From: Sipunculus nudus
Lineage: Eukaryota > Annelida > Sipuncula > Golfingiida > Sipunculidae
DNA: 64,000 bases
Assembly: GCA_026874595.1 (NCBI GenBank)
Contig: CM049307.1
Span: 51,209,370 to 51,273,369, forward strand
Direction of reading: 5' to 3'
Shown: positions 9,989 to 60,540 of the stretch, in pieces
Position numbering within the stretch: position 1 is the stretch's first letter
Layout of the letters: the number at the start of each line of letters is the position of its first letter
Translations under genes and position numbers: made by a program
The notes under the pieces: generated by a model
The model's database searches: none
The model's input: only the letters and a program-made list of their open reading frames with translations
What the model was told of the DNA's origin: nothing

Positions 9989-10136
9989 TTCATATATGAC
10001 AAAAGTAATTATGTGTATATATATATTAAAAGAGATAAAATATATTGTAGAAATGCCAGGAAGGGGTTTAATGATAACCACGACACGCATGCCTATTACA
10101 CCGAGGCAAGAAGCAAATTTCCTTTTTTTCTCAATT
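9989..10136. repeat. Long direct repeat flanking the LINE, 3' side copy (target duplication)
   Basis: These 148 bp match 15652-15800 with a single difference, C versus CC at the end of a T run. The copies sit exactly at the two ends of the minus-strand LINE, and this one is followed directly by the T run that is the element's poly(A) tail on the opposite strand. That arrangement is what target-primed insertion leaves, but the length is far above the usual 7-20 bp of L1. Confidence 0.9.
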
Positions 10137-10146
10137 TTTTTTTTTA

Positions 10147-10390
10147 ATGACCTTTATAGCAATATACTCTGCCTTTGACAAAGCCATAACCACTCCGACA
10201 GATAGAGGGGATGGAATGAATACATTCATTTTTATCTGTCAGCACAATAACATTTAAGAATATAATGAAAAATAAATAAACATTCAATATTAACATACAG
10301 ATAAAATACTATCTTTAATTTTTATAAATCTATCAATGAAAATTTGATTCAAGTAAGGGTATTTTAAATATTTCTGAATATATACATGTT
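10147..10390 (-). other. 3' UTR of the LINE
   Basis: AT-rich sequence between the ORF2 stop and the poly(A)/target-duplication junction. It contains no open frame of note. It would carry the 3' signal recognised by the element's own RT, but none can be picked out from a single copy. Confidence 0.6.
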
Positions 10391-12295
10391 TCATAATATC
10401 TTGCGATTTTGTCGTATTTTACTCTCTGATAGGCTAATTTCATTATATTTACAATGCATATTGTACTTAAAAATGGCATACGTAGTTACTGATATTATGA
10501 AATTGTTCATTTTTTCAAAATTACCATCCAGTGCGTATTTATGACCAATTACGAGCGTTTCCCAGTTTATCTGGATATGAAGTATTTTCATAATATTTTC
10601 CCATATCTCCCTCAATAATTTACATTCATACAGCATATGTTCAGCATTTTCATTTACATTACAAAATTTACAAAGATAGGAAATATTTGAGTTCCATTTG
10701 GACATTTTGGTACCTGTTGGAATAATGCCATGTAATAATTTGAAATTAAATTCTGATAGTTTTTTCGTTGGCATGTTTTTAATTTTACACTGATAGACTT
10801 TTGTCCAACTTATTAATTCTTTTTTAAATTTTTCCTGCAAAATAATTTGATGTTTGGGAGAAGACATATTTCTTCTTACTAATTCATTGTAAAAGAATTT
10901 TGATTTCTTCTTATATATATTAAAATTATGTTTACCAAGCGTGTATGTGTGTTCTAGATAAACCGATTTCTTTATGAATTGTTCTTTTGGAAATAGAGAA
11001 AAAGTCTTTTTAACGGCATTTTTAACCTGTATATATTCCGATATCCAATTGTGTTTAATTTTTAATTTCTTTAAAAGGTTGCTGACTGATATAAAAGTGC
11101 CATCATTGTTTAGAACATCTCGAATATAAATTATATTTTCTTCAACCCAGGCTTTAAAATATAAGCATTTATTATTGATCATAAATTCAGTGTTACCCCA
11201 TAATGGTTGTTTTAAAATATCTTCTGGTGAAGTAATCTCTCTTTTAACCTTACATTTATTAAAAGCTAATATCACTTCTCTATAAAATTGGGGTATATGT
11301 TTCAATATGCAAAACTGCTTTATTGATACACAGTTTGTGTTAAATACCCAGTCTGTATGGAGCCCACAGCTGTGTAAATAATATTTAAAGATATGTTTCC
11401 ATTTATTTTCTTCATAAAGTATTCTTGGTACCCATGCAGCTTTAAATGAAAGTAACCAACTATTAATATCGATCATTTTAAGACCGCCTTCCTCTATATC
11501 TCTTATTAAAACTGACCTTTTAATTTTTTCTGTTTTATTCCAAATATAGTTATAAATAACTTTGTTTATTCTTTTTTCGAATCCGTCCGGAATTGGTAGT
11601 ACCGAAGCTTGTAATGCTATTTTGGATAAAAGTATTGTCTTAACAATTAATATTTTTCCAATTAAACTTAGATTCCTCAACTTCCAAATGTTTATGTTAT
11701 TCTCTATTTTATCAATTTTGTCTTCCCAGTTTAGTTTTTCTATACATTTCTCATCATATCCAAACCAAATTCCTAAGCATTTCACTGGCTGTTTTGTCCA
11801 TTTTACTCCTATTGGATCTTTATGCCTCTTATTATTTCCCAGATCTAAAACGGTAGTTTTTTCCATATTTAGTTTTAAACCAGCTAGGTTTCCAAATTCA
11901 TAAATTTCCTTAAAGGCAGTTGAAACTGATTTATCATTTCTCAGAGTCAAAGTAGTATCATCTGCATATTGGCTAAGTTTTATTTCTTTACTGCCAAAAA
12001 TAAAGCCGTTAATATTATCATTTGTTCGTATTTTTTGTGCCAATATTTCAACTGAAATAATAAAAAGTAATGCAGATACTGGACAGCCCTGTCGTATACC
12101 TCTTTTCATTACATTTTTTGAAGATAACCATCCGTTATTTTTTGTAGTAAAAAGTGGGTTATTGTAAATAGTTTTAATCCAGTTGATAAAGTTCTGACCA
12201 AAATTAAATTTTTTAAAAGTTTCAAACATAAAATTCCATTCTAAGCTATCAAAAGCCTTTGTAAAATCGAGAAAAATTAACCCCCCTTCTTTATT
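10391..12295 (-). pseudogene. LINE ORF2, C-terminal half: reverse transcriptase palm to Cys-His finger
   Basis: This frame continues directly from the upstream half after one TAA (12296-12298). The first 22 codons contain RT motif A (FLDFTKAFD, catalytic Asp). From the Met at 12229 follow motif B (RGIRQGCPVSALLF, residues 43-56) and motif C (YADD at 88-91 with both catalytic Asp). Next come the LGIWFG block, the 'W-x-RNLSLIGK' thumb block and a C-terminal C520-x2-C523-x7-H531-x4-C536 finger typical of L1/Tx1 ORF2 proteins. No other break is visible, so only the stop separates it from an intact enzyme. The product would reverse-transcribe the LINE RNA at nicked target DNA. Confidence 0.93.
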
Positions 12296-14107
12296 TTATT
12301 TCTTAGCAAATTCAAATATGTCCGTAATAAGACGTAAATTATTTCCGATGTATCTACCTTTAATATATCCGGTCTGATCTGGGTCAATTATTTTTGGTAA
12401 AATATTTTGCAATCTATTTGCTAATACTTGTGCTAATATTTTATAATCAGTGTTACAGAGGCTTATAGGTCTATAATTATGTAAATTATATTTGTCTCCT
12501 TTCTTAAATAATATTGATATTACAGCTGTACGCATGGTAGAACATAATTTATTGTGACGATACGATTCTATAAAAGCATTATATAGAAACTCTTTTAGGT
12601 CATCCCAAAAAGTCACGTAGAATTCAATAGGGATGCCATCTAATCCTGGGGACTTGTTTTTCTTCATTTGAGTTACAGCAATTTTAATTTCATCCATTGT
12701 CATTTCTGCATCACATATATCTTTATCTTCATCACTTAAAACATTTAAAGATTTTATATTATTTAAATATTTCTGTATCTCTTTCACACATGGATTGTGT
12801 GATGTATATAAGTTTTTGTAATAATTATTTATATGATTTAGTATTCCTTCATCATCTTCTATTATATTATTGTTTTCTCTGATTTTATAAATAGTGTTAT
12901 CTGACTGGTTTTTATTCTCCAGCTTGAAAAAGTATTTCGTACTCTTTTCCCCTTGTTCAATCCAATTAGCTCTACTACGTATTTGAGCACCTTTTGTTAT
13001 ATTATCAAATATTTCATTTTTTTCTATTTCAAGTAAATGCTTTTCTTCTTTTAATCTTTCTATATCCTTAGCTATTGAATTTAAACTAATAAGCTGTGAA
13101 ATTTGTTTAATCCTTTTGTCTATCATAGCTAATCTACTATTTTTTTCTTTTCTTTTCGATTTAGAGTAGTTAATACTTGCTTCTTTTATGTTAATTTTTA
13201 TCATTTCCCAAGCTAGCCTCGCAGAATTGTGTTTATAACGTGTGTAACTAGAGGCAATACAGTCTTTCATCAGCCCAATAAAAATTGGATCATTAAATAG
13301 GCTGACGTTTAGTTTCCAATATCCCGGCCCTCTAATGCTTACTTTAAAATCCAGACATATCTTTATAGCTTTGTGATCTGACAGCCGATGTTCTTTTTGC
13401 TCTGACAGTACGTATTCACAGTCATAATTTAAGCAGTTCCATAGTTCAGAATTAGAGATAAAGAAATAGTCAAGTCTACTGCTTACATTCCTTTCTGACC
13501 ATGTAAATCGGTTATTTAACCTGCCATAACAGCTCCATATATCAGTTAGCTTTAAAGTATTTAACATATTTTTCAATAGTATTCTACTTTGGTCTGCCAT
13601 ATGTGACATCGTGCTCCTATCATCATCTTGCAGACAACAATTAAAATCACCTCCCATAATGATACATCTTAAAGAATCACTTTTTTCCATTAACCATTTC
13701 TCTAAGTCCTCAAAGAAAAGTTTCCGTTCCCCTTCTTTGTTCGGTGCATAAACACATACTAAGCATAATTTTTTACCTTTGTATTCCGTATTCAACAGTA
13801 TTTTTCTACCATTTTTACAGCAATGAATATTTAAAATTTTTATATTTATTTTATCTGATAATAGTATTGCAACACCTCTGCTATGTGGTGACGATGCATG
13901 ACTATGAAATATTTTACCTTTCCATGAACTGTTAATTATATTCGATGATACTATAGTGCAATAGGTTTCTTGTAAAAAAGTAATATGAACATTTCTATAT
14001 GTTAACCATGTATATAATTTCTTCCTTTTATCATAATTATTAAGACCTCTTATATTTAATGAACATATATTTAATTGTCTATTCAAATCTGTCATGTGGT
14101 TTTCCAT
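12296..14107 (-). CDS. LINE ORF2, N-terminal half: endonuclease and RT fingers, ending at a premature stop
   Basis: This 603-residue product opens with an apurinic-type endonuclease (about residues 10-250): N18 in CSLNIRG, E47 in FLQET, D154/N156 in GGDFN, D213 in RLDYFF, and S243-D244-H245 in RLSDHK. All catalytic positions are present. A lysine-rich, probably coiled linker (315-365) leads to the R-x-RANWIEQGEKSTKYFF block (376-394) that precedes the RT in this group. RT fingers follow with SPGLDGIP (486-493), NYRPISL (544-550) and QTGYIKGRYIGNN (578-590). It stops at TAA 12296-12298, immediately before RT motif A. The start Met lies 46 bp after the ORF1 stop; initiation probably depends on reinitiation or bypass. 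Confidence 0.93.
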   Translation of the reverse strand: MENHMTDLNRQLNICSLNIRGLNNYDKRKKLYTWLTYRNVHITFLQETYCTIVSSNIINSSWKGKIFHSHASSPHSRGVAILLSDKINIKILNIHCCKNGRKILLNTEYKGKKLCLVCVYAPNKEGERKLFFEDLEKWLMEKSDSLRCIIMGGDFNCCLQDDDRSTMSHMADQSRILLKNMLNTLKLTDIWSCYGRLNNRFTWSERNVSSRLDYFFISNSELWNCLNYDCEYVLSEQKEHRLSDHKAIKICLDFKVSIRGPGYWKLNVSLFNDPIFIGLMKDCIASSYTRYKHNSARLAWEMIKINIKEASINYSKSKRKEKNSRLAMIDKRIKQISQLISLNSIAKDIERLKEEKHLLEIEKNEIFDNITKGAQIRSRANWIEQGEKSTKYFFKLENKNQSDNTIYKIRENNNIIEDDEGILNHINNYYKNLYTSHNPCVKEIQKYLNNIKSLNVLSDEDKDICDAEMTMDEIKIAVTQMKKNKSPGLDGIPIEFYVTFWDDLKEFLYNAFIESYRHNKLCSTMRTAVISILFKKGDKYNLHNYRPISLCNTDYKILAQVLANRLQNILPKIIDPDQTGYIKGRYIGNNLRLITDIFEFAKK

Positions 14108-14153
14108 CGTCTTTCGTATTTATATCCTTTATTTTTTTTTTTTTTTTACTTTG

Positions 14154-15482
14154 TTAATAATATTCTCCATCACTTTCTTCAAAAACACGATCTTCGACGA
14201 CACCTCTTTGTTCAGATTGTGGGCTAAAGTCATATCTGCGAGATTTCAGTGAAACTCTTAAGCTTGTATGTTTTTGCTGATTTGGTGACTGTTCAGATAG
14301 TTTTCGTTTCGGTGTTCCCATGCCTTGAAAAACCTGGTTGGACTCTTGGTCTTGTACTGAGGCTATATTGCTAGTTGCTTTTTCTCTGTCATGATTTTCC
14401 GCACTATAAAAGGATCTTATTTTCTCAAGTGTGGCACCATATAAGTTCCTACCAGGCCATGCATCCACCTTGGTGACTCTGGAGAGAAATTTGGACAGCC
14501 CTGTTCCCCACTGTTTATCTTGAACTGTGAGGGCGATCGGTGCTGTACCTGATTTCATGAGAGCTTCTTTGAATTCAGGGATCTGTTCTGCTTTCTCTAA
14601 CAGGATATTTTCCAAAATTTCAATTTCATGTCTGTCCACAGATTCATCAGAGTGCAAGATCTGGCCAATTCTCTTGGCAACTCCTGCATGTTTTGCGTTT
14701 TCAATTTCATTGGCCAACGCATCTTGGTCCAATTCATATGCGCATCTATACTGAAACGCATGTTCAGCGCTTTTAAAAGTTTTCCCGTACATTTCAAAAG
14801 AACAAGGGAAGGAGTTGGAGAGAATATCATCATGGCCAGACACAATTTCCATTGATTGATCAGGTATGTAATGCTCACAATATTTGCTACCTGGTTTGTG
14901 ACCTTTTTTGTGACATACTATACAGGTCAGGTCCTTGAACTGATCATTATGAAAAAATCTGCACTGAAATGGTCCAATTTGTCCATTTCGTGGTAGTGGG
15001 TTTGCCAAAGGCGATTTCACAAAAACAAATCTGTTTCCATTTTTGTAATGTGTCAGGAGTCCTTCTTTTGTCCTTTCATATTGATATTTTATTTCAGAAC
15101 GTAGCTCAAGCTTATATTCTGACTGTAAGTGTTCAACAATTGATTGATTGTCAAATGAGAGGGGGACATCTGCAATTGTGACTTTGATGGGTGCTGGGAA
15201 ATTGTCTGAATTTCTTGCACTATAAGGGTTTGTGTCGGAAAGTTGTACAAACTTATTCCGTAGAGACAGCCCCTCTGCCAAAAGTTTTATTCTTGCATCA
15301 ATTGATTTCACATATATTCTCCACAGATTTTTTATTTTTTGTGCACCATCAATATTGTCCGAGCCAACAACCTGAGCTGCAGCAGAACAAACTTCATAAG
15401 GTCTCATAGAGTTTTTAATGTTTGTATTGGAAAGCACAGTGTCATTTTTAAAGAACACGGGCAACACAGAGTCGTGTTCCAT
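14154..15482 (-). CDS. LINE ORF1 protein with zinc knuckle and NADAR (YbiA-like) domain
   Basis: Intact 442-residue frame. Residues about 98-180 (KVTIADVPLSF through FVFVKSP) look like the beta-alpha-beta start of an RRM-type RNA-binding fold. Then comes a knuckle C187-x2-C190-x4-H195-x6-C202, slightly longer than the classic CCHC. Residues about 213-360 match the NADAR/YbiA family: LSNSFPCSF, then KTFKSAEHAFQ (E240, H241, Q244), W325-G in the middle, and the closing WPGRNLYGATLEKIR. The tail 361-442 is basic, Ser/Gln-rich and probably disordered, ending acidic. NADAR enzymes act on ADP-ribose-type substrates, including removal of ADP-ribose from guanine in DNA. Fusion to a LINE RNA-binding protein is unusual. 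The position where the family usually has Lys (YQxxKA) appears to be Cys247, so activity is uncertain. Confidence 0.88.
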   Translation of the reverse strand: MEHDSVLPVFFKNDTVLSNTNIKNSMRPYEVCSAAAQVVGSDNIDGAQKIKNLWRIYVKSIDARIKLLAEGLSLRNKFVQLSDTNPYSARNSDNFPAPIKVTIADVPLSFDNQSIVEHLQSEYKLELRSEIKYQYERTKEGLLTHYKNGNRFVFVKSPLANPLPRNGQIGPFQCRFFHNDQFKDLTCIVCHKKGHKPGSKYCEHYIPDQSMEIVSGHDDILSNSFPCSFEMYGKTFKSAEHAFQYRCAYELDQDALANEIENAKHAGVAKRIGQILHSDESVDRHEIEILENILLEKAEQIPEFKEALMKSGTAPIALTVQDKQWGTGLSKFLSRVTKVDAWPGRNLYGATLEKIRSFYSAENHDREKATSNIASVQDQESNQVFQGMGTPKRKLSEQSPNQQKHTSLRVSLKSRRYDFSPQSEQRGVVEDRVFEESDGEYY

Positions 15483-15651
15483 TCTGACAATGCTATCGTG
15501 TATTCAGCGCTTCGGTGAACAGGGTACCTGAACACGCGCCACACAAATCTGTGCCCTAACCGCAGGGCTTTCACTGAATGGTTCACTGAGCAGACAATTA
15601 CAGGATCCAATAATACAATTCAATAATATTACTGTCAGTTTTACAAAGAAT
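15483..15651 (-). promoter_or_regulatory. 5' leader of the LINE
   Basis: It spans from the 5' insertion edge to the ORF1 ATG. A LINE of this kind would need an internal promoter here, but no TATA or initiator motif stands out. The block 15490-15600 is more GC-rich than the rest of the element. Confidence 0.45.
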
Positions 15652-15800
15652 TTCATATATGACAAAAGTAATTATGTGTATATATATATTAAAAGAGATA
15701 AAATATATTGTAGAAATGCCAGGAAGGGGTTTAATGATAACCACGACACGCATGCCTATTACACCGAGGCAAGAAGCAAATTTCCTTTTTTTCCTCAATT
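15652..15800. repeat. Long direct repeat flanking the LINE, 5' side copy (target duplication)
   Basis: These 149 bp match 9989-10136 apart from one extra C. Flanking sequence diverges completely on either side of both copies, so the repeat stops at the element edges. Confidence 0.9.
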
Positions 15801-19648: not shown

Positions 19649-19898
19649 ATGAACACAAAAAGAAGAGAGACATCAACGCCAACATTTTAAACAATCATAT
19701 TATTTGGATAACATGTACAGATTGTTGCTAAATTTTCAGCTACCCCTGTAGCCTTCGTCAGAGCGAGTGACGCTGTGACGAAGGCTACAGGGGTAGCTGA
19801 AAATTAAGCAACAATTTAGCAACAATCTGTACATGTTATCCAAATAATATGATTGTTTGAAATGTTGGCGTTGATGTCTCTCTTCTTTTTGTGTTCAT
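19649..19898. repeat. Long near-perfect inverted repeat, arms of about 112 and 123 bp
   Basis: Left arm 19649-19760 and right arm 19776-19898 are reverse complements except for one mismatch and a 12-bp insertion in the right arm ('aagcaacaattt', a local duplication). The loop is only about 15 bp. A (TA)n tract begins immediately after the right arm. No coding frame spans it. Confidence 0.93.
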
Positions 19899-56262: not shown

Positions 56263-56885
56263 CGGCTCATCAACTCCGATTGGACAGAGTTAATAGTAAA
56301 TGAAAAATCTTGACACAAAGTGATTGTATTCATGGTCAAATTAAATAAAAACTTTGCATGTACAAATGTTTAAATTGTTTGTTAAACGATGATAGAGGAG
56401 TCGACCTTACCTCAATATATTGATCTAGCCCTAAAAGCTATCCCTGTCATTTCGCATATTTTTTTTTTAAATATTATTTTTCAACATAAATATATATATT
56501 TGTTTTTAATATCTAAATATCTAAACTAAGAGCATGCTTAAAACGGTTGAGCCAAACATTTTCATATTTGGCTTGATTATTTCTTTAATGTTAGCAGACT
56601 GCCTCTCGCAAAGCGCCGTTCGGTTATTGCTTACACAGTTTATGTGCATGCATACTAGTATTTTGCAAATCGAAAACATCAATTAAATGCAAGAAAACAA
56701 AGAAAATCTCTGTGCTTAACAGTCCAGAAAGTAGTAAGACGTTTGCTAACCACACAGTTTTAGCTAGAGTGACCAGTTTATTACAAATTAGAGTCCGGGG
56801 TGAAGTGTTGTATTATTTGAACTTTAATCTCGCTTTAATCTCTCACTTTAACCGTCTTTCATTTTACAATTACATAGTAAATTAC

Positions 56886-57317
56886 ATGTCTTTCAATTTT
56901 CAACTCCACAGCTTTAATGTGAGAGGTCTGCAAGATAAATTAAAAAGAAATAAGGTTTTTGATTGGTTACAACAACTAAAACAAAGTATTATATTTTTAC
57001 AAGAAACACAAAGCAAACTACAGCATGAACAGATTTGGATGCGGGAATGGGGATCAGATATTATGTTTTTTCATGGCACAGGAAATAGTAAGGGAGTTGC
57101 AGTATTGTTCTCAAAGGATATAAATATAACAGTAATGAAATCTACTATCGACAAAGATGGTCGATTTTTATTATCAGAAGTCAAAATTGATGAAACAAAC
57201 TTTACACTAATAAATGCATATTTTCCAACGAAAGATCATCAGTCACAAAAGTTAACCTTTATTGAACAATTAAATGACCTCCTTTTCCCTCACAGAGGAG
57301 ACAACCTTGTAGTTTGA
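56886..57317 (+). pseudogene. LINE ORF2 endonuclease, N-terminal part
   Basis: The likely true start is the ATG at 56886 (MSFNFQLHSFNVRGL), 58 codons inside a longer open frame. Conserved Asn (FNVRG) and Glu (IIFLQETQ) are present, then GVAVLF and INAYFPT. The frame stops at TGA 57315-57317 exactly where the catalytic 'GDFN' block begins (it reads V-V-stop-G-N-F-N). Confidence 0.85.
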
Positions 57318-58314
57318 GGTAATTTCAATATAACTCTCCAGCCAGATATTGACAAAATTGGAGGGCAAAAAGAAAAAAAATAGGTCCTCCGAGTAGGCAA
57401 CTTGTCAAATTAATTAAACAATATCTATTAAACACGTATGGCGAACACGCAATCCACACACATGGGCTTACATAAGAACGCAAGAAACACCTCGAATTAT
57501 GTCAAGAATTATTTATGGTTAATGTCAGAAACACTTGTACCAAACGTAACGTCAGCTGATATTAAACCAAAAATTTTCTCTAACCATTGTATAATTTCAG
57601 CTTCTCTGACAGGTGACCTCTTTGTCCGCAGACGACGAGGACACCGGAAATTTAATAATGACCTTTTAGCAGATGATTCGTATACAGATACAACAAAACA
57701 GCTTATACATGAGTTGATCGATAAATATAAAGTTTATGAAAATAAGCATATTGTATGGGACACCATTAAGTGTGAATTAAGAGGACAAACAATACAATAC
57801 TCCAAAAGGAGGGCCAGAAAAAAGAGAGAAGTAGAAAAAAAGCTGACCACTGAATTAACTTTCTCAAACATAATAATTAATGAAAACCCGTTTGACGAGG
57901 AAACAAAACGAAAAATGGACCAAGTGACAACAAAATTAAATGAATTGTATAATTTTTCTACAAGGGGTTCTATAATTAGAAGTAAACAAAGATGGTATGA
58001 ATTTGGTGAAAAGAATACAAATACTTTATGTCTCTAGAAGAAATTACAAAAATAAATGTATAACATGTATTAAAAAGGGGCAAGAAGATATAACGAACCC
58101 AAAAGTAATATTAGAGGAATGTAAACTGTTTTATGAAAACTTGTATACAGCAAACAAAAAAATAGCAGATTTAACAAATGGGGAGTTTTTAAATAGTGAA
58201 ATCTTTGGACTGAATGAACAAGAAAAAGTAGCCATGGAAAAACCAATTACACTATACGAAGCTGTCGCAGCTTTAAAAGAATTTAAAAAAGGTAAATGTC
58301 CAGGGATGGATTGA
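57318..58314 (+). pseudogene. LINE ORF2 endonuclease end and pre-RT linker, frameshifted
   Basis: Two overlapping frames (57438-58037 and 57997-58314) carry the end of the endonuclease (KIFSNHCIISAS, with the usual SDH changed to SNH). The linker block RGSIIRSKQRWYEFGEKNT follows, equivalent to the R.R..W.E.GEK motif of the 10-15 kb LINE. The second frame ends with FKKGKCPGMD, the first RT block, at a TGA. Confidence 0.85.
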
Positions 58315-59120
58315 TTTACAGTCGAATTTTATATATACTTCTGGGATGAAATTGGCGAAATTTTCCATGAGCAACTGTTGTATTCTTTAGATAAAGGATT
58401 TCTCTCAATAGAACAAAGAAGAGGAATAATATCTCATACCAAAAATAGGAAAAGATCGAAAACTTATAGGAAACTGGAGACCGATATTGCTTCTACCTAT
58501 TGATTATAAAATATTAGCAAAAATAATTGCAAATCGTTTAAAAAAGATGCTGCCAAATCTTATTCATACTGATCAGACTGGTTTTATACCAGGGCGTTAC
58601 ATTGGAGAAAATAATTCAAAATATTATTAACCATACTATCAATAAAAATATATGTAATATTATGCTCCTGCTCGATTATGAGAAAGCTTTTGACAGATTA
58701 GAATGGCCATTCATTTGGAAAACGCTTGAGAAATTTAACTTTGGAAAGAAAATGATATCACGGGTCAAAACTTTATATTTAATGCCTCCAGTACAATACA
58801 AAATAATGGTTACTTTTCTTCTTTCTTCACGATAGAACGAGGCGTCCGTCAGGGCTGTCCTCTATCACCTTATTTATTTATCCTAAGTAGCTAGCCATAT
58901 TCGTCAAAACAATAGAATAAAAGGAATAAATATAATAGGGAAAGACATAAAGATATCACAGCTCGCCGATGACATAACGTGCTCTGTTGCTGATACCGAA
59001 TCTGATAAACATGTTCTCGCCACCATTAACAGTTTTCATGAAGTTTCAGGTTTAAAGATTAATATGAATAAAACTGAAGCCCGATGGTAAGTAAGGAACA
59101 AGGGCTGGAAAGGAAGATGG
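58315..59120 (+). pseudogene. LINE reverse transcriptase core, several frameshifts
   Basis: Fragments in order: LPIDYKILAKIIANRLKKML (about 58495), HTDQTGFIPGRYIGE (58570-58610), LLDYEKAFDRLEW (motif A, about 58665), RGVRQGCPLSPYLF (motif B, about 58840) and QLADDITCS (motif C, catalytic Asp pair at 58968-58973, with Leu instead of the usual Tyr). Frames change at least three times. Confidence 0.85.
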
Positions 59121-60540
59121 AGATTTGGCAGTCAGATGGACATCCGGGAACTTTAAAACTTTAGGTATAACATTGTATCAAACTGAAGAAGCTACAGCAG
59201 CTAATTATATAAAAATAAATATAGAAAAAATTCGGAATCGATTTCAGTCATGGAAAAGGAGAAACTTGACACTAAAAGGAAGAGTACTTATCACAAAAAC
59301 ACTTGGTATAACAAAATTACTTTACTGTATGTCAACGTTTCATATGCCCAAACCGTATCTTACGCAAATACAACATCTATTAAACGACTTAATATGGATG
59401 GGTAAAAAAAGTAAAAATTAAACATACAGTTATGATTGAACAAACGTGCGAAGGTGGATTAAAAGTGACTGATATAGATATTCTGAATAAATCGATAAAA
59501 ATGGCCTGGCTTTCCCGTCTCATTAAAGACCAGGACTCAGTATTGTCATATTTAGTAAGAACTTACTTTAACAAAACTGTATTATCATTACATGACATTT
59601 AAACATGCCGCTCTTTCAAACCAACATCATGCAATCTGTCGCCAATGTATAGAGATATATTGGCATTTCTTTAAGATTTTTATAGCAAAAGCAAACCCCT
59701 AACTGTTCAAGATGTTATTAACGAGAACATATGGTACAAAGATTTAATACATCTTAGTTATAAAAGGCAGACTTTCTTTTATAAAAATTGGTATAAAGCC
59801 GATATCCGTAAAATCGCCCACTTAATAGACAAAAAAGGTAATTTCTTAACAATGATTCAATCAATGACAAAGTACAGAATAAAAACAAATTTTATCGAAT
59901 ATCACAGACTCATGAAACACATTACATGAAGTTGGAAATCTACTTTATCAAAAATAGTGAAGAAACTGACTACAGTAACTGTGATAGAGAATTAAGATTT
60001 AGAATATCATCTTTATATTATTATAATATTTTGAGCTGTAAAAGTAAAGTTTTCTACAATACCCTAATAAAAAGTAAAGCTGGAAAATCAACAGCACAGG
60101 TCTATTGGTCACACAACTATGGCATTACGGAGATTGATTTTAATTCTAGTATTAGCTTGTCACTCACCTTCAGTAACGAATCAATCATTTTTCAATCAGA
60201 AATTTTGTTGACCATACAGGACATTATATTCGGATTAAAAGGAAATAGAAGCCCCCAAACATTATTAAATGTTAATTACCTCATTATACAAGCCAAATAT
60301 TATATCCATGTACAGAAATGTGCCGAAAAAAGAATAGATTTCACATCATTCTTGGAATATGTAAGAAATGAGCTGGAAATGAAAAATTTAACTCTAGGAA
60401 ACAAAGGAAAAGAATCAGTATTTACAGAAGTTGGAGTCACTTACATCAACATATTAAACTCTCTATACAGGATTAACTATTTGCAACTTAATCATACATT
60501 TGATACTGTAAAAAAAATTATTGTATTTCATTCATGTTGA
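59121..60540 (+). pseudogene. LINE ORF2 C-terminal part, frameshifted
   Basis: FKTLGITLY and WKRRNLTLKGRVLITKTLGI (59125-59421) form the thumb block. A frameshift leads to CEGGLKVTDIDILNKSIKMA (about 59445). A last frame 59926-60540 (204 codons) is lysine-, asparagine- and isoleucine-rich and ends near the expected end of ORF2. No C-terminal Cys-His finger is visible. No clear poly(A) or target duplication follows. Confidence 0.75.

Follow-up and report, generated by a model that had tools for sequence, protein, structure and literature searches.

A NADAR domain with partly replaced active-site residues in the ORF1 protein of an L1-superfamily LINE from Sipunculus nudus

A LINE insertion in Sipunculus nudus has an intact ORF1 with a NADAR domain behind a zinc knuckle, and several active-site residues of the domain are replaced. 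The insertion lies in a 64,000-nucleotide stretch of contig CM049307.1, here called the window. The best overall explanation, which we hold with moderate confidence, is that the NADAR domain was gained by an ORF1 of the L1 superfamily, that catalytic residues were then replaced, and that it now acts as a non-catalytic binding or packing module. Hosts and parasites are increasingly seen to contend over the ADP-ribosylation of nucleic acids.

The element and its ORF1 protein

The insertion has the following features, with positions counted in the window.

10137..15651, minus strand: LINE insertion, with the A-run (3') at the low end and a 5' end shorter than in two sister copies
9989..10136, no strand: left copy of the target-site duplication, 148/149 identical to the right copy, with one gap
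15652..15800, no strand: right copy of the target-site duplication, 148/149 against the left copy
14154..15482, minus strand: intact ORF1 of 442 aa, with RRM-like fold, RRM-like fold, zinc knuckle, NADAR domain and disordered tail in this order
15213..15467, minus strand: RRM-like fold 1, residues 6-90
14943..15194, minus strand: RRM-like fold 2, residues 97-180
14877..14924, minus strand: variant zinc knuckle CX2CX4HX6C, residues 187-202, read from the sequence
14394..14861, minus strand: NADAR domain, residues 208-363, with some active-site positions replaced
14157..14363, minus strand: C-terminal tail, residues 374-442, of low confidence (pLDDT <50) and poorly conserved (mean pairwise identity 14%)
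12296..14107, minus strand: ORF2 part 1, endonuclease and start of the reverse transcriptase (Pfam PF03372, PF00078)
12230..12295, minus strand: single frame break of ORF2 within the reverse transcriptase, flanked by two open frames
10391..12229, minus strand: ORF2 part 2, remaining reverse transcriptase and zf-RVT (Pfam)

The initial annotation had described an intact 442-residue ORF1 with a NADAR domain behind a zinc knuckle, and both a profile search and a structure check bore this out. ORF1 matched PF08719 (NADAR) with an E-value of 2.1e-17 and 64.3 bits (cut-off 35.1), and the domain had a YbiA-like fold. A PDB search with the single ORF1 sequence found no NADAR up to E 1, whereas a search with an ORF1 profile instead recovered a NADAR structure. 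The RRM-like folds stand directly upstream of the variant knuckle, in an order resembling that of the type I LINE ORF1 described in PMC4120745 (RRM plus CCHC), of which this ORF1 is a possible member. Compared with that type, the extra NADAR module and the CX2CX4HX6C knuckle spacing are different. Enzyme-type domains have also been added to ORF1 in CR1/L2 (an esterase) and in Jockey (a virus-like helicase), as described in PMC4120745 and PMC5563155; here the enzyme family is another one, and the active site is partly replaced.

The ORF2 frames are directly downstream of ORF1 on the same strand. Among solved structures, human L1 ORF2p was nearest to ORF2 part 1 (E 1.5e-51), and R2 matched with E 8e-5. 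With an AP-type endonuclease and a reverse transcriptase closest to L1 ORF2p among those structures, the element is by its sequence an L1-superfamily LINE.

The window copy has both a target-site duplication and a 3' A-run, as used here to recognize a LINE insertion, and the A-run is also present at the 3' junctions of its sister copies L009 and L010. These sisters were 98.9% identical to the window body over about 5.5 kb. They share 164-168 extra bases at the 5' end, indicating that the window copy lacks a little of its 5' end. Where the sister copies truly begin, L009 has a duplication of 12 exact bases and L010 one of about 15 bases beside an A-run, both of ordinary short length; the 149-bp duplication therefore belongs to the window insertion alone and not to the family. 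The two 98.9% identical copies over 5.5 kb and the 148/149 match of the duplication indicate recent activity of the family.

Some further features of the window were recorded. An A-run of about 20 nt (sense strand) occupies 14128-14147 in the short ORF1-ORF2 spacer. A second, broken LINE ORF2 lies at 56880-59896 on the plus strand, with 23-57% identity in pieces to the ORF2 of this element. The ORF1 of the present element had no relative elsewhere in the 64-kb window, and scanning the window for Rfam families and tRNAs yielded no matches. A near-perfect inverted repeat about a short centre was spotted by eye at about 19650-19895.

Spread of the fusion and probable gain of the domain

The fusion is not confined to a single copy; relatives were present in a large protein collection and at multiple loci of the S. 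nudus genome. At least 108 matches to ORF1 were found in the 1.43-Gb genome, a lower bound with 95 of 326 candidates scored. One of the copies was intact and 98% identical, others with 47-48% identity were open, and many ORF1 copies were broken. Two loci at 47-48% identity to the window copy, L012 and L013, still had an open NADAR. A script was applied to 28 loci. In 19 of them (16 distinct places, counting the window) a NADAR frame was accompanied by an ORF2-like frame, L018-L020 had NADAR without ORF2, and six had no NADAR frame of at least 150 aa. These results agree with the proposal that the fusion is family-wide next to ORF2.

In the protein collection, a full-length ORF1 search gave nine relatives, seven of them with PF08719, and a profile of NADAR only gave 83 proteins. 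The knuckle and the NADAR match occurred together in 18 rows besides the window ORF1, among which P0011 is a short piece only; a first tree left out six short rows. Two rows had a named species, P0017 from Ostrea edulis and P0020 from Pinctada imbricata; the family therefore reaches bivalves. P0017 has the knuckle and NADAR of the LINE ORF1 type and is labelled 'riboflavin biosynthesis protein VVA0006-like'; such host gene names may conceal retrotransposon proteins. A scan of viral contigs with the ORF1 profile gave 25 pattern matches, none of which was confirmed.

NADAR in a LINE ORF1 has been reported before. Several Tx1 families of Crassostrea gigas have a YbiA-family NADAR in ORF1, for which RNA processing was suggested (PMC12477816). 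Judged by titles and listings among the matches listed, this was the only open-access source found on LINE NADARs. The fusion as such is thus prior art, and the present element is a variant of it. The name Tx1 comes from the oyster relatives, which were set beside the window element by their description in PMC12477816 only. To that description we add active-site, phylogenetic and domestication analyses of LINE NADARs. NADAR capture is also known from a NADAR-bearing LTR retrotransposon; there the domain is in Pol of an LTR element, whereas here it is in ORF1.

Sister ORF1s with the same body and no NADAR were found in the protein collection (P0009 and P0010) and at all four own-genome loci fetched for this purpose (L032-L035). 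Of the ORF1s examined, 22 of 24 with NADAR and all six without it showed the HxxG pattern of the knuckle. An unrooted tree of the shared N-terminal part separated 17 NADAR-plus rows (two with NADAR in a separate broken frame) from six NADAR-minus rows on one branch (100/100). This tree permits the simplest reading, in which the ancestor of these ORF1s acquired NADAR a single time. For the direction, gain is simpler than loss, since NADAR occurs widely as a domain of its own.

Active-site residues and candidate roles of the domain

Residues are numbered as in 8bau, with key residues as named in PMC11543638. According to that source, the E. coli C7 NADAR lost guanine de-ADP-ribosylation when the residues corresponding to E125 and K50 were changed, except that Arg could stand in for the Lys at the K50 equivalent in vitro. 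Phage NADARs with His at the E125 position are reported to be active (PMC11125620). The E125 alignment requires an adjacent one-residue gap.

In the window copy, K50 was replaced by Cys, R79 by Gln, W89 by Val and E125 by Leu, whereas E43, D130 and W133 were retained. When Lys at position 50 and Glu, Asp or His at position 125 were taken as the contact residues, the window copy had Cys and Leu there. We compared 28 LINE rows (17 from the database and 11 from the S. nudus genome). E43 was kept in 27, K50 in 14, W89 in 16, E125 in 11 and W133 in 21. All rows keeping E125 were from the database (11/17; 0/11 in the own genome). The 11 own-genome rows kept K50 in 1/11, W89 in 3/11, W133 in 5/11, E43 in 10/11 and D130 in 11/11, and six of them had Arg at K50. 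For comparison, the 19 non-LINE rows (8bau included) kept E125 in 18/19 and K50, W89 and W133 in 19/19 each.

Columns conserved outside LINEs were also checked in the own-genome LINE rows. Columns 92 (K, 11/11), 121 (G, 11/11), 139 (G, 9/9) and 141 (N, 10/10) were retained, and the non-active columns 143 (L, 0/10), 148 (M, 3/10) and 106 (T, 5/11) were often lost. These 11 rows represent only four or five families, and the losses are therefore few events. Twelve further own-genome loci were fetched for their Pfam score; the four LINE-type loci with a knuckle among them (L043, L044, L045 and L049) had Asn or Tyr at E125, and none had Glu.

The initial annotation had suggested that the domain might counter a host ADP-ribosylation defence or repair the element's intermediates. 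Enzymatic removal of ADP-ribose to such ends is not supported for this copy, which has Leu at E125, Cys at K50 and Val at W89. An active ancestral enzyme is plausible, since 11 of the 17 LINE rows from the database retain E125. In some database relatives NADAR still looks like a working ADP-ribosyl hydrolase. Given the replacements, catalysis seems lost or changed in the own-genome LINE lineages, as judged from four or five families. Several observations blur this loss: E43 and D130 are kept, columns 143, 148 and 106 are lost though they are not active-site columns, Arg at K50 works in vitro in the C7 NADAR, and the His that several relatives have at E125 is also that of the phage NADARs reported to be active.

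We weighed the view of the initial annotation that NADAR might still work as an ADP-ribosyl hydrolase, freeing the RNA, cDNA or proteins of the element from ADP-ribose and so opposing a host defence based on ADP-ribosylation. The fold and the strong match to NADAR agree with this, as do the database relatives P0008, P0014, P0020 and P0022, which retain E43, K50, W89, E125 and W133. NADAR domains of metazoan RNA viruses have also been read as counters to host ARTs (PMC9503650). The four replacements in the window copy and the absence of E125 from all 11 own-genome LINE rows make this account unlikely.

A changed chemistry or substrate was also considered, in which another catalytic residue would process RNA ends or small ADP-ribose derivatives of element RNA. 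His replaced Glu at E125 in P0001, P0002, P0005, P0007, P0013 and L004 (97% identical to the window copy). The window copy still has E43, D130 and W133, and an RNA-processing role has been proposed for retrotransposon NADARs (PMC12477816). However, the His has itself given way to Leu in four recent copies that are 98-99% identical, namely the window copy, L009, L010 and L011, and other families have Leu, Tyr or Asn at E125. We consider this account improbable.

The constraint on the domain bears on whether it has a present function. Among eight proteins (28 pairs), mean pairwise identity was 37% for NADAR, 43% and 39% for the RRM-like parts, and 14% for the tail; the conservation of NADAR thus comes close to that of the RRM-like parts and greatly exceeds that of the tail. 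Selection within LINE families was barely measurable. By the Nei-Gojobori method on the NADAR part, with few changes within families and saturated synonymous sites between them, the window copy differed from L009 by four nonsynonymous and no synonymous changes (dN/dS undefined) and from L004 with dN/dS 1.05 (four nonsynonymous, one synonymous). The values were 0.35 for L012/L013 (6 and 5 changes) and 0.18 for L021/L023 (2 and 3 changes). It is very unlikely that NADAR is a decaying passenger without present function: active-site losses, numerous broken copies and a dN/dS near 1 or unmeasurable between the closest copies fit this, but the frame is intact, most fold columns are kept, conservation matches that of the RRM-like parts and is well above that of the tail, and L012 and L013 are still open through NADAR.

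The preferred explanation, a binding or packing module, would run as follows. In an L1-superfamily LINE whose RNA-binding protein consisted of two RRM-like folds and a knuckle, NADAR would have been joined to the C-terminal side of that protein, and in some database relatives it may have stayed like a working hydrolase. In the own-genome lineages, catalytic and several phosphate-contacting residues are replaced, with most fold-defining residues and the frame kept. The domain may then serve in the ORF1 ribonucleoprotein, where it perhaps recognizes or shields ADP-ribosylated nucleic acid or protein without removing the mark. The host would have taken the same knuckle-NADAR piece into TRIM-like genes.

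TRIM-like genes and other NADAR carriers

The most surprising side of the finding is the link to TRIM. Five frames of 528-670 aa in the S. nudus genome had a knuckle and NADAR near the C-terminus: L018, L019, L020 and L030 (C5:28.2-28.9 Mb) and L031 (C3:12.31 Mb). All but L030 were scanned with Pfam. RING and B-box, which together with a coiled coil mark TRIM proteins, were above the cut-off in L018 and L019, and L020 had B-boxes only. In L031 only NADAR was above the cut-off, and this frame matches L019 over residues 8-324 with 27% identity. E125 was Gln in all five frames. Judged by titles and listings among the matches listed, no report of a TRIM-NADAR fusion was found in the open-access literature.

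The HxxG knuckle pattern of LINE ORF1 was present in four of the five frames. Because NADAR-less ORF1s also have this knuckle, the knuckle-NADAR piece was read as LINE-derived, and it appears that the host took it up from a LINE ORF1. In the tree, the five TRIM-like NADARs formed one clade (98/82), and the LINE rows, fragments, TRIM-like rows, P0060 and P0075 were separated from all other NADARs on one branch (96/90). The tree does not prove that the TRIM-like NADARs arose inside the LINE clade: a constraint that kept LINE rows and fragments together without TRIM cost 9.0 log units and was not rejected (AU p 0.159).

In the C5 genes, dN/dS of NADAR was computed for four of six pairs. Two pairs with dS of about 0.6 gave 0.18 and 0.19. 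The other two, whose dS was 1.4-1.9, gave 0.09-0.10, values that are rough owing to saturation. Synonymous sites between the L031 and L019 NADARs were saturated. Synonymous divergence between L018 and L030 was 0.58 in NADAR and 0.11 in the upstream part, as if the upstream parts had been homogenized.

In TRIMCyp, a TRIM5-cyclophilin fusion, the C-terminal binding domain of a TRIM protein has been exchanged for another. The frames described here would likewise encode TRIM-like proteins with an exchanged C-terminal domain. Unlike in TRIMCyp, the C-terminal piece looks derived from a LINE ORF1, and the proteins are known from sequence alone. One might guess that they bind the same target as the LINE NADAR, or the LINE particle itself. 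It is possible, though we regard it as doubtful, that in the host the knuckle-NADAR piece came to guide TRIM-type E3 ligases to their target, so that these recognize LINE particles, or the ADP-ribose mark on them, and restrict the particles, with the LINE NADAR shifting from enzyme to binding decoy. If true, this would be a putative restriction factor built from the parasite's own part, in parallel to TRIMCyp. LINE NADARs with intact and with replaced sites, together with the TRIM-like NADARs, form a natural series for roles as enzyme, decoy and possible restriction factor.

NADAR was not limited to these frames. At least 141 matches to PF08719 were found in the genome, 124 of them above the cut-off, with 150 of 204 candidates scored. 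That catalysis was lost in all NADARs of the genome was rejected, as L036, L039-L042 and L048 keep E43, K50, W89, E125 and W133. These are frames without the knuckle, and L036 and L048 have Arg at K75. L037 has Asp at E125.

In L038:484-1533 and L051:1584-2636, NADAR follows a part weakly like human L1 ORF1p (2ykp, E 0.0026), with ORF2-like remnants downstream that were read by eye. Both have Asn at E43, Arg at K50 and Asp at E125. They are of a different LINE ORF1 type and suggest a second, probably independent capture of NADAR by LINEs.

Repeated frames in L039, L040, L041, L042 and L050:3462-4568 appear to join NADAR to a GDSL/SGNH-like hydrolase part. This part matched PF13472 in L042 with E 1.4e-4, below the Pfam cut-off, and was read by eye in L039-L041 and L050. 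L050 has only one other frame of at least 120 aa in its 8 kb. The canonical active-site residues are kept in L039-L042.
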